From contig CAJFLE010000001.1 of assembly GCA_904387375.1 (NCBI GenBank), forward strand, positions 248,001 to 312,000: a DNA stretch of 64,000 nt, read 5' to 3'. This document shows, piece by piece, positions 16,792 through 24,289 of this stretch. The first letter of the stretch is position 1; every line of letters starts with the position of its first letter. The notes beneath the pieces were generated by a model that had not been told where the DNA came from, ran no database searches, and worked only from the letters and a program-made list of their open reading frames with translations. The translations under genes and the position numbers were made by a program. The DNA is from Candidatus Protoclostridium gallicola. GTDB lineage: Bacteria; Bacillota; Clostridia; Christensenellales; Pumilibacteraceae.

Positions 16792-16865
16792 GGTACCATA
16801 GCCAAGTGGTAAGGCACGGGCCTGCAAAGCCTTGACCCCCGGTTCAAATCCGGGTGGTACCTCCA
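16792..16865 (+). tRNA. tRNA-Cys (GCA), CCA encoded
   Basis: Cloverleaf with acceptor GGTACCA/TGGTACC, anticodon loop CTGCAAA, T-arm GGTTCAAATCC, 3' TCCA. Confidence 0.97.
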
Positions 16866-16867
16866 AT

Positions 16868-16894
16868 ACGCGACGGATTTTAAGTCCGTCGCGT
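16868..16894 (+). repeat. Inter-tRNA hairpin containing an inverted copy of the tRNA-Leu anticodon arm
   Basis: acgcgacgga-ttttaag-tccgtcgcgt, 10-bp stem. cggattttaagtccg (16874-16888) is the exact reverse complement of 16962-16976. Confidence 0.8.
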
Positions 16895-16934
16895 TCTTGC
16901 TTGAAAAGCGTCGCCGCGCGAGCGAATTTATTTT

Positions 16935-17020
16935 GCCGCTGTGATGGAATGGCAGACATCGCGGACTTAAAATCCGCTGGAGGAAACTCCGTATCGGTTC
17001 GACCCCGATCAGCGGCACCA
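16935..17020 (+). tRNA. tRNA-Leu (TAA), CCA encoded
   Basis: Acceptor GCCGCTG/CAGCGGC, anticodon loop CTTAAAA, long variable arm (tggaggaaactcc), T-arm ggttcgacccc, CCA end. Confidence 0.97.
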
Positions 17021-17025
17021 GCATC

Positions 17026-17063
17026 GACAAAGTTTGAGCCCAAAGAATGGGTCGGACTTTGTC
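17026..17063 (+). terminator. Imperfect hairpin downstream of tRNA-Leu
   Basis: gacaaagt...ccca-aagaa-tggg...actttgtc. Confidence 0.45.
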
Positions 17064-17075
17064 ACAATCTAATAA

Positions 17076-17108
17076 GGAAAAGCAACGAGTTTTACTCGTT
17101 GCTTTTCC
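17076..17108 (+). terminator. Terminator-like hairpin downstream of tRNA-Leu
   Basis: ggaaaagcaacgag-tttta-ctcgttgcttttcc, perfect 14-bp stem. Confidence 0.7.
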
Positions 17109-17498
17109 CGTTTATGCGTTAATGCCTGATAATCATTCGATTCATTTATCTTCGCATATAATTCCAATAAAAACCGATTATACCAAAGGTGCGGACGCAG
17201 ACGCCTTTATTATTTGCGCCATTTCCGCATTGCCGATAGATAATGCAAAAGCCAAAGCGACTTTTTGCGGTAAAATGAACCATGTGGCTCTGCCCCGCGA
17301 TTGCGGATAACCCAAATTGTTACCGCTGCCGTTCCAGCGTATGGCAATGCGCCTGTCTTCCTTCCAGAGAACCGATGCGATAAAAAAAATTATCAGTTTC
17401 GTCAGTAAATGCCAGTAGTTTCCGCTTTCAGTAGGCGCTGTTTCCGTTAACAAATCAACAAGCTTTTCTAAAAAATGCTCTATAGCCGTCAAAAATTC

Positions 17499-17527
17499 TT
17501 GACGCGAGCATAGTTTTCGGCTATAAT
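17499..17527 (+). promoter_or_regulatory. SigA-type promoter for the DUF4143 ATPase
   Basis: TTGACG - 17 nt - TATAAT; SD AAGGAG just before the ATG at 17565. Confidence 0.8.
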
Positions 17528-17551
17528 AATATTTAATATTAAATTAGCCGA
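17517..17551 (+). promoter_or_regulatory. Dyad overlapping the -10 region of the ATPase promoter
   Basis: tcggcta...tagccga flanking an AT-rich near-palindromic centre (aatatttaatatt). Confidence 0.5.
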
Positions 17552-17564
17552 TAAGGAGTCTCTT

Positions 17565-18788
17565 ATGTATATCAGAAGACATGCGGAAAAAACCGTTGCA
17601 AAGCTTTCGAAAATGTTCGGCGCCGTACTTGTCGCGGGACCGAGGCAGGTTGGAAAAACAACGATGCTGAACCAGATAGCCAACGGGCTCAACCGCGCCA
17701 CGCTGGACGATCCTATTATGCGCGCCGCTGCCGAAGAACAAAGCGGTACCTTCTTTTTGGACAATCCTCCTCCCGTATTCGTTGACGAGATACAAAAAGC
17801 CCCTGCCCTATTTGAACAGATAAAGCTGTATCTTGACAGAGACAGGAAAAAAGGTCAGTTCTATCTGTGCGGTTCACAGCAATTCAGAATGATGAAAGGT
17901 GTAAGCGAATCGCTTGCCGGCCGCATAGGTCTTGTAACACTGCTTGGCTTTTCAATGAGAGAAAGACAAGGATTAGCCTTCGATTTGCCGTTTATCCCGA
18001 CGGAAGAATACTTTACAGCGCGCAAAGCCGAAAAGGTCGAAATCGGATATTTCGATGCGTGGAACATGATCCACCGCGGCAGTATGCCCGAACTTGCCGA
18101 CAACCCCGATTATGATTGGCGGCTGTTCTACAGCTCCTATGTAAATACCTATATAGAAAGAGACGTCAAAGAACTGTCGGAAATCGGCGATACTGTAAAG
18201 TTTACTAATTTTATGATTGCTACAGCCGCCTCTGTCGGACAGCTTCTCAATCTGGCGTCGCTCGCGAGAGATGTCGGGATCAGCGTCCCTACTGCGGAAA
18301 GGTGGCTTTCCATACTCGCCGCATCGAATATCGTCTATCTTCTGCAACCCTACTCCAACAACATTTTGAAACGCGTTGTCAAAACTCCAAAGCTCTATTT
18401 CCTTGATACGGGACTTGCCGCCTATCTCACCAAGTGGACTACTCCTGAAGTGCTGAAAAACGGCGCAATGGCGGGAGCGTTCTTTGAAAACTTCGTACTT
18501 TCAGAGATCATCAAGAGCTACTATAACCAAGGGATTACCGAACCGCCGCTCTACTTTTACAGAGATAAGGATATGAACGAAATCGACCTGCTGATAGAAG
18601 ACGGCGGAACACTGTATCCCATTGAGATAAAGAAACACGCCGATCCGCACAAAAAGGACATCTCGGCTTTCCAAAAACTTGACAATATTCCCAATATGAA
18701 GCGCGGCACGGGCGGAGTTGTCTGCCTTTACGATAAAATGATATCTGTGTCGGAAACGGATAAGGTTATCCCGATAAGTTACCTCTGA
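17565..18788 (+). CDS. AAA_14/DUF4143-family ATPase
   Basis: 407 aa; Walker A GPRQVGKTT, Walker B VFVDEIQKAP, C-terminal DUF4143-type segment (KTPKLYFLDTGLAAYL, YRDKDMNEIDLLIEDGGTLYPIEIKK). Confidence 0.92.
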   Translation: MYIRRHAEKTVAKLSKMFGAVLVAGPRQVGKTTMLNQIANGLNRATLDDPIMRAAAEEQSGTFFLDNPPPVFVDEIQKAPALFEQIKLYLDRDRKKGQFYLCGSQQFRMMKGVSESLAGRIGLVTLLGFSMRERQGLAFDLPFIPTEEYFTARKAEKVEIGYFDAWNMIHRGSMPELADNPDYDWRLFYSSYVNTYIERDVKELSEIGDTVKFTNFMIATAASVGQLLNLASLARDVGISVPTAERWLSILAASNIVYLLQPYSNNILKRVVKTPKLYFLDTGLAAYLTKWTTPEVLKNGAMAGAFFENFVLSEIIKSYYNQGITEPPLYFYRDKDMNEIDLLIEDGGTLYPIEIKKHADPHKKDISAFQKLDNIPNMKRGTGGVVCLYDKMISVSETDKVIPISYL

Positions 18789-18848
18789 AAACCCTGTTTT
18801 GCAGCCGTCCTATGTAGCAGCCTTCGTCCCGGCACGAGAAATCATCGT

Positions 18849-19294
18849 AAAGTAACTGTCAGATTATAGAGGAATGGAACAGAATAACAAATATAATCGG
18901 CGCAGACATACTCGTGTTGGATATGCCGCTGCTCGACACCCGCACGAAAGCGGATACTTTGGTCGGCAAGTTCATTTCGGATATTGTGTTGCAGGTATTG
19001 TCTTTCGTAGCCGAGAATGAGCGGGAAAACAACAAAGCGCGACAAGCCGAGGGAATAAAAATAGCGAGAGAAAAGGGCGTCCGTTTCGGTCGCCCTTCGT
19101 TCGTCTATTCTGAAGAAATTTTATCCGTCGCAAACGACTATCTTTGCAAGAGTATCAAACTGAAAACCGCTTTGCAACTACTGAATATAAAGCAGGACAA
19201 TTTTTTCTATCATTTAAGAAAGATAAAGAAAACAAAAGCTAAAACCGTTAATTCTGTCGCGGAAACGATCAAAGACAACTCGGCAAATAATTGA
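18849..19294 (+). pseudogene. 5'-truncated serine recombinase (resolvase/invertase family)
   Basis: Frame opens after TAA at 18848: SNCQIIEEWNRITNIIGADILVLDMPLLDTRTKADTLVGKFISDIVLQVLSFVAENERENNKARQAEGIKIAREKGVRFGRP. This is the mid/C-terminal resolvase region; the catalytic-Ser N-terminal half is absent. Confidence 0.88.
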
Positions 19295-21370: not shown

Positions 21371-24070
21371 TTATGCGGCTTTGCGGCGCATACGTATAAA
21401 TATTTTCGAGATTTCTACGGCGATGAGCGGGAAAAGCGCGAGGCCGAGCACGATGAGATACTGATACCATTCGAGATATACGAGGTCGAAGAATCCCATG
21501 ACTCCGGGCACGAATGATACGAATACTACGATGGCCAGCGACGCGATAATCGCGTACGTCAGGAATTTGTTCCTGCCGCCGCCGTGCGCGAATATACTGT
21601 CGATATTCGAACGCTGGTTGACCGAATGCACGAGCTGCGAGAGCGCCATTACAAGGAATGTCATTGTCATGGCTACCGCATGCTTTTCCGCGGGCGTGGC
21701 GCCGAAGCAGGCTTCCGCAATCCAGTAAGCGGACAATGCAGCCGCTGTGATAAACAGTCCGTGCAGAGCAATTCGCACGATCACTCCCCTTTCGAACAGC
21801 GTTCCGCTTTTTACGGGCGGCACTTTCATGACGTTGCGGTCCGCCGGATCCACGCCGAGCGCGATCGCGGGCAGCGAGTCGGTGGCGAGGTTGATAAGCA
21901 GAATGTGTATAGCAAGAATGGGATCCTCCCAACCCAGACAGAACGCCAGGAACAGCGTCAGGATTTCGGCTATATTGCCGGCAACCAGAAACTGTATGAC
22001 CTTCTGTATATTGCGGTATACTCGCCGGCCTTCTCGCACGGCATACTCGATCGTCGTAAAGTTATCGTCGAGCAGTATCATGTCCGCGGCGTCCTTCGCA
22101 ACGTCTGTGCCCGTAATGCCCATCGCGACGCCGATGTCAGCCTCTTTGAGCGCCGGACTGTCGTTGACGCCGTCGCCCGTCATGGCCGCGACCTCGCCGC
22201 AGCGTTTGAGCGATTTGATAATGCGCAGTTTGTCAGCCGGCGATACTCTTGCGAACACGGCGGCTTTTCTGACCGCCTCGTCCAGCTGCTCGTCCGTCAT
22301 CTCGTCGAGTTCCTGTCCGGATACGACGATATTGCCGTCTCCGAATATGTGCAGCTGACGGGCTATGGCAAGCGCCGTTACTTTGTGATCTCCCGTTATC
22401 ATGATAACGCGTATGCCTGCCTGCCGGCACGACTCGACGGCGCCGATTACCTCTTCCCGCGGCGGATCTATCATTCCCACCGCGCCGACGAACGTCATTC
22501 CGTATTCCATGTCGGCCGAATCGTCTTCAGGCACTTCGACGCCGCGGCGTACGGCAAAGCCGAGCACGCGAAGCGCGTTTCCGCTCATCCCGTTGCAGGT
22601 GGCGAGAATACGGCGTCTGTCCTCTTCCGTCATGTCGCGCTCGCCGTCTGCGGCAAAAAAGCGCGTGCAGAGCGGAAGCATTTCATCTACAGCACCCTTT
22701 GTAAATGCTACAGGACCGCCCGGCATATCGTTTATTGTCGTCATACGCTTTCTGTCCGAATCGAATGGCTGTTCGAACAGTTTCGGATGCTTTTCCTCGT
22801 AATCGTCCGAATCTATGCCGTACTTCGCGGCAAAAAGTATGAGCGCGCCCTCGGTCGGATCCCCCAGCGTTTCGCCGGGACGGTCGGGATCCATGTGCGC
22901 GTTTACGCACAGCGAGCAGCCGTCCAGCAGCAGCCCTATCTGCTCGTCGGAATATCTGTCGCGCAGCCCGTCGGCCGTTCCGGGTCTGCCGGTGTCGAAA
23001 TCTCCGCCCATTGCGACATGCGTAACCGTCATCTTATTGAGCGTGAGCGTACCCGTTTTGTCGCAGCATATAACCGTGGCGCCGCCCAGCGTTTCCACCG
23101 CAGGCAGACTCTTTACCAGCGCGTTCTTCTTCGCCATACGCTGAACGCCGAACGCCATTATAATCGTAGCCGTAGCCGGCAGACCTTCGGGAATTATGGA
23201 TATCGCCAGCGATATGCCGAGCAGGACGAGCGACTGCCACGTTCTGCCGCCGCGTGCGAAACCTATAATCATAATGGTCACGCAGACCAGCAAACCTATA
23301 ACGGTCAGAATCTTGCCGACAGAGTTGAGCTTCTTTTTGATGGGCGTGCGGAAATCGTCCTGCGTTTTCAGCATATCCGCGATCTTTCCCACCTCGGTAT
23401 TCATTCCCGTGCCCACGACTATACCGGTAGCGTTGCCGTACATGACAACGGACGACGCGTATGCCATATTGACCCGGTCTCCCAGGGGCGTATCCGCGGC
23501 AAGCACCGCCTTGTCGTCTTTTTCCGCAGGCATGCTTTCCCCTGTCAGCGACGCCTCGCGTACACTCATATTGTTATCGTCGGTTATACGAATGTCGGCG
23601 GGAACTATCGTTCCGTCTTCCAGATATACGACATCGCCGGGCACAAGTTCGCACGCCGGTACGACGCTTTCCTCTCCGTTTCTGAGTACACGGGCAGTAG
23701 GCGCGGTCATCTGCTTGAGCGACGCGAGAGCATCGGCGGCTTTCTTTTCCTGAATCACGCCTATCGCGGCGTTAAGCACGATTACGGCGAAAATAACGAT
23801 TGCCTCGGGAAGTCCTTCGCCGTCGATGAAAAACATCACAAGCGAAAATATCATGGCCACAAAAAGTATGATCACCATGATGTCCGAGATCTGTTCGAGT
23901 ATCATTTTACCGATACTCTTCGGTTTTGTCTCGCGCAAGACGTTTTTCCCGTATCTGGCAAGACGTGCGGCAGCCTCCTCATCGGTCAGTCCGTCCGGAC
24001 CGGTATTAAGTTCTTCCTCAGTTTCGCGGCATGTCATCGCATGCCAGGGCCGTTGTAGGTTGTCGTCCAT
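21371..24070 (-). CDS. Cation-translocating P-type ATPase (calcium-transporting type)
   Basis: 899 aa; DKTGTLTLNKM phosphorylation motif, TGES, MTGDGVNDSPALKEADIGVAMG, PEGLPATATI. Confidence 0.95.
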   Translation of the reverse strand: MDDNLQRPWHAMTCRETEEELNTGPDGLTDEEAAARLARYGKNVLRETKPKSIGKMILEQISDIMVIILFVAMIFSLVMFFIDGEGLPEAIVIFAVIVLNAAIGVIQEKKAADALASLKQMTAPTARVLRNGEESVVPACELVPGDVVYLEDGTIVPADIRITDDNNMSVREASLTGESMPAEKDDKAVLAADTPLGDRVNMAYASSVVMYGNATGIVVGTGMNTEVGKIADMLKTQDDFRTPIKKKLNSVGKILTVIGLLVCVTIMIIGFARGGRTWQSLVLLGISLAISIIPEGLPATATIIMAFGVQRMAKKNALVKSLPAVETLGGATVICCDKTGTLTLNKMTVTHVAMGGDFDTGRPGTADGLRDRYSDEQIGLLLDGCSLCVNAHMDPDRPGETLGDPTEGALILFAAKYGIDSDDYEEKHPKLFEQPFDSDRKRMTTINDMPGGPVAFTKGAVDEMLPLCTRFFAADGERDMTEEDRRRILATCNGMSGNALRVLGFAVRRGVEVPEDDSADMEYGMTFVGAVGMIDPPREEVIGAVESCRQAGIRVIMITGDHKVTALAIARQLHIFGDGNIVVSGQELDEMTDEQLDEAVRKAAVFARVSPADKLRIIKSLKRCGEVAAMTGDGVNDSPALKEADIGVAMGITGTDVAKDAADMILLDDNFTTIEYAVREGRRVYRNIQKVIQFLVAGNIAEILTLFLAFCLGWEDPILAIHILLINLATDSLPAIALGVDPADRNVMKVPPVKSGTLFERGVIVRIALHGLFITAAALSAYWIAEACFGATPAEKHAVAMTMTFLVMALSQLVHSVNQRSNIDSIFAHGGGRNKFLTYAIIASLAIVVFVSFVPGVMGFFDLVYLEWYQYLIVLGLALFPLIAVEISKIFIRMRRKAA

Positions 24071-24114
24071 AGCGTTTTCTTTTTATTCCTCCGATATTAT
24101 TATATTTAAAACGC

Positions 24115-24157
24115 AAAAAGACATAACCATTAAGGCAAACCTTATGGCTATGTCTTT
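24115..24157 (-). terminator. Intrinsic terminator within the 5' leader of the P-type ATPase gene
   Basis: Minus strand AAAGACATAGCCATAAGG-TTTG-CCTTAATGGTTATGTCTTTTTG: long near-perfect stem plus U tract, about 45 nt upstream of the start codon. Confidence 0.85.
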
Positions 24158-24253
24158 GAATTTCATATTCGGTAAATAGTTTATACTTGGGTTGGCGTCG
24201 CTATTTCCGCCGTCACCGTCTTCCATTACGGAATAATTCTCCTTGCGTTTTAT
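24158..24253 (-). promoter_or_regulatory. Candidate structured leader / riboswitch aptamer region (class unassigned)
   Basis: About 95 nt between the strong promoter and the terminator, with small hairpins (TTCC-GTAAT-GGAA; GGCG-GAAATAGCGA-CGCC). Confidence 0.5.
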
Positions 24254-24259
24254 GAAAAT

Positions 24260-24289
24260 ATTATACTATATTGTCCGTACGCCTGTCAA
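24260..24289 (-). promoter_or_regulatory. SigA-type promoter for the P-type ATPase leader
   Basis: Minus strand TTGACA - 18 nt - TATAAT. Confidence 0.85.

Follow-up and report, generated by a model that had tools for sequence, protein, structure and literature searches.

A conserved Asp-rich leader ORF upstream of cation exporter genes in Clostridia: a putative ribosome-mediated attenuator

The ATPase locus, its terminator and its leader

The window analysed here is a stretch of 64,000 nucleotides from Candidatus Protoclostridium gallicola (contig CAJFLE010000001.1, positions 248,001 to 312,000 of the forward strand). On its minus strand a promoter, a leader and a hairpin followed by T5 precede the Shine-Dalgarno sequence (SD) and ATG of a cation ATPase gene (Table 1). 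An earlier, sequence-only reading had proposed a TTGACA-18-TATAAT promoter, an intrinsic terminator with U5 and, behind it, the SD and ATG of a Ca2+-type P-ATPase. All of these were confirmed, the ATPase as a P2A type.

Table 1. Features of the leader and the ATPase gene, numbered from the first letter of the window.
Feature	Position	Strand	Basis or remark
Sigma-70 type promoter TTGACA-18-TATAAT	24260..24289	-	12/12 consensus positions
SD AAGGAG of leader ORF	24239..24244	-	Sequence; kept in homologs
Leader ORF, 47 aa + stop, MEDGDGGNSDANPSINYLPNMKFKDIAIRFALMVMSFCVLNIIISEE	24083..24226	-	Open frame, phase and acidic composition conserved
Conserved part of leader ORF, codons 2-13, acidic, ends AAC CCA	24188..24223	-	
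Intrinsic terminator, hairpin about 24157..24117 and T5 24119..24115	24115..24157	-	Folding; covariation in 45 homologs
SD GGAGGA of ATPase	24087..24092	-	Sequence; leader ORF stop TAA (24085..24083) directly behind
P2A-type (PMR1/SERCA/LMCA1-like) cation ATPase, 899 aa	21371..24070	-	ATG at 24070; profile models, structural relative

The best-scoring models for the ATPase were of PMR1 and SERCA type, both under their cut-offs, and its closest solved relative was Listeria LMCA1. Orthologs of the same genus (76-79% identity) have an identical layout with differing leader ORFs. The leaders of several paralogous P-type ATPases showed instead a yybP-ykoY-like layout (GGGAGTA, CAACA, GAGACT and a common P1 stem in the joint fold); these were L038 (own genome, G000:C4), L041-L045, L020, L025, L009, L014, L027 and L028. 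Such leaders did not reach the RF00080 cut-off, the sole scorer being L021 with 26 bits against 45, and they are probably a diverged Mn2+ riboswitch class missed by Rfam. Elsewhere in the window, the region 16792-19294 contained two tRNA genes (16792-16862 and 16935-17017), followed by an ORF of AAA type and by a truncated resolvase-like one (18914-19294); this region resembles the border of a mobile element.

The promoter was the top-scoring of 17 sites within 8 kb. Homologous leaders carried a promoter at the same place with at least 10 of 12 consensus positions in 52 of 59 cases, compared with 1.4% of shuffles. The terminator folded with a minimum free energy of -22 kcal/mol (z -7.4 against dinucleotide shuffles). 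Through the comparison of 45 leaders, standard pairs were found in 97.5% of the cells of the 11 modelled terminator pairs; nine of these pairs have changes in both partners, and the pairing is lost when one arm is slid against the other. The left arm (RGCATAACC) often holds an in-frame stop (TAA, TAG or TGA), and its A.C mismatch with the right arm is kept in 43 of 61 leaders. The arms are conserved beyond the needs of a plain terminator. In Oscillospirales (L118-L124 and L126), a second conserved hairpin, GCTGACCACCGCTGAAAGGCGGTCAG, lies between terminator and ATPase, and its 3' arm could alternatively pair with CTGACCG of the leader ORF.

The sequence-only reading had also described a structured leader of about 95 nt and taken the arrangement as riboswitch architecture of a diverged or undescribed class. 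The 95 nt before the terminator showed no excess folding (z -0.34), and 64 of 200 shuffles folded at least as well; the whole leader owes its z of -4.1 to the terminator that it includes. An Rfam search of the window at the gathering score returned nothing for the leader, and at E up to 10 only implausible weak matches. RF00080 (yybP-ykoY) had no match in the window at either threshold and none in the CNNM leader loci tested. The Rfam 15 riboswitch and leader families, searched in the window and its relatives, matched no leader except weakly and far below the curated cut-offs, which rules out a known riboswitch. Considering covariation, the terminator is well supported as an RNA structure, and no other structure was conserved across the family; in particular, when 64 leaders were folded up to the left arm, we found no consistent upstream partner of this arm that could serve as an antiterminator. 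An aptamer is thus unsupported; what is conserved in the leader behaves like a translated ORF.

The leader ORF and its distribution in Clostridia

The leader contains a short ORF that the sequence-only reading did not mention. It is led by an SD, begins with MEDGDGGNSDANP, crosses the terminator and ends inside the SD region of the ATPase. In each of 61 non-redundant leaders, the frame of the ORF (frame 0) stays open at least until 20 nt upstream of the terminator's left arm, and its stop falls between -20 and +5 of this arm in 45. By contrast, frame 1 closes earlier in 40 of the 61 and frame 2 in 44. In the alignment, the ATG and CCA columns are separated by a number of nucleotides divisible by three in 45 of 47 leaders, with seven different lengths; one of the two remaining leaders is visibly misaligned by a single base. 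The spacer from CCA to the terminator has no phase (16/18/13).

The start of the ORF is acidic. Asp makes up 25% of residues 2-13 compared with 5.2% in 261 control N-termini, and these residues are also rich in Ser, Gly and Ala and poor in Lys and hydrophobic residues. Of 75 leaders, 61 had an acidic pair ([DE] x0-1 [DE]) within residues 2-16, compared with 24% of controls, and the mean net charge was -2.7 against +0.7. These leader counts are descriptive and are given without p-values, because related genomes are not independent samples. The pN/pS of about 0.8 makes the substitution pattern alone indecisive on coding. Codon choice is strongly biased: CCA accounts for 95% of Pro codons (3% in the ATPases), CGA for 76% of Arg codons (5%) and AGT for 37% of Ser codons (6%). 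Nucleotides of these codons are conserved beyond the peptide, which together with the pN/pS indicates that something besides peptide composition is selected; one possibility is that pausing at rare codons keeps the ribosome synchronized with the polymerase. Two other candidate explanations were rejected. The 47-aa ORF of the window ends in a hydrophobic, transmembrane-like stretch, but its relatives stop earlier and vary after CCA, so a small membrane protein is not indicated; and CCNAAGTA is not a general genome motif, since it is not enriched within the window.

The layout was followed in 80 loci from GTDB genomes, including Coproplasma, Borkfalkia, Limadaptatus and others, with more distant Oscillospirales and Lachnospirales. 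The automatic scan found the promoter, SD, short Asp-rich ORF, terminator and ATPase in 63 of the 80 loci as well as in the window, and several more were recognized by eye. About 60 non-redundant orthologous loci keep this layout, more than expected by chance, and they span Borkfalkiales and reach Oscillospirales and Lachnospirales. Examples of the leader ORFs are MSGDDGDSTADNPNHFNIRL, MSEGVGDCSDANPRISHNLTP, MDDADSSDADRSNTYCKLNTFLYIGITCV and MTTDGDGDGDISDAHPHPSRTTTRT, and GACNGTAGCGACGC is common to leaders of different orders. The sequence upstream of the promoter, which in the window contains suf genes, differs among relatives, indicating that the leader belongs to the ATPase. Near-identical upstream DNA was observed in two genera, at L120 (Flavonifractor sp. 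An306) and L121 (Faecalibacterium gallinarum), suggesting a recent horizontal transfer of the ATPase with its leader.

As a family probe, a short DNA pattern hit only 1 of 392 class genomes, and covariance models were used instead. A model built from ATPase leaders only was applied to 392 genomes sampled across the class. At its strong matches outside ATPase loci, a different gene was preceded by this same set of promoter, SD, Asp-rich ORF and terminator. This gene encoded a CNNM protein (PF01595) in all nine tested cases, eight of them with CBS and CorC_HlyC domains and the ninth cut by a contig end. With the combined model at E up to 1e-5, the class sample yielded 21 hits besides that of the window, and the phylum sample added two. 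Eighteen of the 23 stand before CNNM genes of two distinct sequence types and three before a P2A ATPase; L213 precedes an unrelated gene, and L152, cut by a contig end, is probably an ATPase leader. Among the 22 hits whose downstream gene could be read, this gene is thus a CNNM or P2A ATPase gene in 21. Recognizable leaders also stand before another two CNNM genes of the order, L182 and L188. In several CNNM leaders the ORF crosses the entire terminator, as in the window; other CNNM leaders have the ORF stop at the left arm or ahead of it. Weak model hits in the window's family lay in the range L135-L147; four of them, L135-L138, were looked at individually and proved to be ordinary terminators following unrelated genes. 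CNNM/CorC proteins have been linked to Mg2+ transport and efflux (PMC8242095, PMC6711546, PMC12421838).

The CNNM genes of the window's own genus, its own genome included (L183, L185, L187, L189, L190, L192 and L194), look leaderless, with a -10 box few bases before the ATG. Several of them start with MDPLS, MPDLS or MDDP, and an in-frame CTA-AGT or CGA-AGT pair resembles the CCA/CGA-AGT of the leader ORFs; here the main ORF may itself carry the destabilizing start.

Proposed mechanism and alternatives

We propose, at a probability of about 55%, that the leader uses a short Asp-rich ORF for ribosome-mediated transcription attenuation, that it belongs to a family guarding divalent-cation exporters (P2A ATPases and CNNM/CorC) in Clostridia, and that the switch is on when Mg2+ or divalent cations are in ample supply. 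The parts of this proposal differ in strength: the element is very probably a leader-ORF attenuator, completed translation probably switches the exporter on, and Mg2+ acting through ribosome stability has an even chance of being the signal. We infer that the leader ORF is translated, that translation relieves termination and that a divalent cation is sensed. Of the metal-responsive attenuator in the sequence-only reading, an attenuator tied to metal-ion export is retained, on the terminator covariation, the linkage of leader and ATPase, and the same leader before CNNM/CorC genes.

In the proposed sequence of events, the strong promoter would fire and a ribosome would trail RNA polymerase into the leader ORF. 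A ribosome that passes the acidic first dozen codons would arrive at the ORF end near, at or beyond the left arm, where it would block the hairpin and let the exporter be transcribed; one that pauses or drops off on the acidic stretch would let the terminator form, leaving the exporter off. This polarity follows from geometry. The acidic stretch lies 22-45 nt upstream of the left arm in nearly all leaders, so a ribosome lost or held there should be too distant to interfere, and finishing the peptide would mean read-through, failing to do so termination. Acidic pairs within about the first 30 residues are reported to pause or dissociate ribosomes, and MgtL thereby sets mgtA transcription at low Mg2+ (PMC11282234); the acidic codons of MgtQ matter similarly (PMC8092293), the N-terminus of CorC is itself ribosome-destabilizing, and the YoaL leader promotes MgpA (PMC12421838). 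Since low Mg2+ favours ribosome loss on acidic pairs, as shown for MgtL in E. coli and Salmonella, the switch would be on when Mg2+ or divalent cations are plentiful, which fits exporters.

Several features of these leaders fit the proposal less well. Asp is enriched and Glu is not, though both destabilize E. coli ribosomes; Pro next to or within an acidic run is rare, though the strongest described destabilizing motifs have it; and some ORF stops lie 11-17 nt before the left arm, at the edge of ribosome reach. The codon bias, the preference for Asp over Glu, the early stops and the arm conservation leave room for a second layer, for example the sensing of a tRNA or a factor, or a nascent chain that binds metal.

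Considering other signals, any block of leader translation would expose the terminator and the geometry names no signal, so the same attenuator might monitor translation generally (initiation, elongation or antibiotic stress) rather than divalent cations. We regard this as unlikely, as the near-exclusive pairing with divalent-cation exporters and the acidic composition point to ion-dependent ribosome stability. A classical amino-acid attenuator, in which stalling at Asp or at rare Pro, Arg or Ser codons with scarce charged tRNA alters termination, would account for the clustered Asp codons and the strong over-use of CCA, CGA and AGT. It is nevertheless rather improbable, because there is no conserved antiterminator or alternative structure, the number and positions of Asp vary freely, and the downstream genes are cation exporters in nearly every readable case and never amino-acid genes.

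The chance is small that the leader is a metal-binding riboswitch with an unrecognized aptamer and that the ORF is incidental. Nucleotides conserved above amino acids in places (such as GACNGTAGCGACGC), a GGCG/CGCC hairpin predicted in the Coproplasma group and the unusually conserved terminator arms would agree with it, but the weak folding of the leader, the lack of Rfam matches and of family-wide structure other than the terminator argue against it, and an aptamer would not need a conserved SD, ATG, frame and stop placement. Unconditional termination serving only the upstream suf genes, an alternative that the sequence-only reading itself had named, is very improbable. No other strong terminator exists from sufD to the ATPase in the window; yet the promoter precedes the terminator, and the unit of promoter, leader and terminator accompanies the ATPase where the upstream sequence differs, and CNNM genes elsewhere. 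The ribosome-mediated attenuator is the reading we prefer, and its recurrence across gut Clostridia before two kinds of exporter suggests an undescribed switch that senses cation excess via the ribosome and is not a riboswitch.

Significance and comparison with known systems

No description of this leader was found in the literature covered, which included the main text of two broad surveys of bacterial noncoding RNA and a minority of the subscription papers. In the papers found, control by acidic nascent-chain destabilization of the ribosome concerns enterobacterial genes, mostly for Mg2+ import. We would tentatively hold, at slightly less than even odds, that the leaders form an undescribed and widespread Gram-positive attenuator family, which reads divalent-cation sufficiency via ribosome stability on a nascent chain rich in Asp, switches in the opposite sense to MgtL and controls both CNNM/CorC and P2A ATPase genes. 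If such a conserved Clostridial family is confirmed, ribosome destabilization would be seen to serve the opposite task, export, by way of an intrinsic terminator, and to do so in much of the gut microbiota; the family would also offer a simple reporter of cytosolic divalent-cation status. It also ties a bacterial P2A ATPase to the CNNM/CorC group, and shared control would make this ATPase a candidate exporter of the same ion. A caution also follows: such leaders resemble riboswitches by eye, yet the conserved element is a short ORF missed by annotation.

The yybP-ykoY Mn2+ riboswitch (RF00080) also precedes P2A ATPases, including paralogs in the same genomes, but differs in sequence and structure, and its features are absent from the window leader. 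The ilvB-II leader and other uORF attenuators of the Breaker surveys (PMC11109978, PMC10272879) likewise started out as riboswitch candidates before each was shown to consist of a uORF and an intrinsic terminator. Leaders of the ilvB-II type have branched-chain amino-acid codons and an antiterminator, whereas the window family has neither an antiterminator nor amino-acid genes.

As in MgtL-like leaders, an SD-led short ORF stands here before a divalent-cation transporter gene. MgtL of mgtA (E. coli and Salmonella; PMC11282234) shares with the window leader the short ORF, the acidic residues in the first dozen codons, the P-type cation ATPase downstream and, as far as can be inferred for the window leader, transcription attenuation dependent on translation. 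The terminator of MgtL is Rho-dependent, its target gene encodes an importer, and ribosome drop-off turns expression on; the window family has an intrinsic terminator and exporters, and its geometry predicts that it is on upon completed translation. The two are unrelated in sequence (an Asp-Gly-Ser rich motif here, EPDP in MgtL). MgtQ of mgtC-mgtB (Salmonella; PMC8092293) is also a translation-aborting short ORF with important acidic codons before a Mg2+ transporter gene, but that gene encodes an importer, and MgtQ acts on mgtB translation initiation via alternative stem-loops and not by way of a terminator. YoaL, upstream of mgpA (yoaE; PMC12421838), is a leader ORF before a gene for excess Mg2+ encoding a CorC-domain protein, and loss of its start lowers expression, the polarity proposed for the window leader. 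Unlike the window leader, YoaL is enterobacterial, overlaps the main gene, has no terminator described and is unrelated in sequence. The window family would work like an MgtL-type leader, yet is neither MgtL nor any Rfam riboswitch class.
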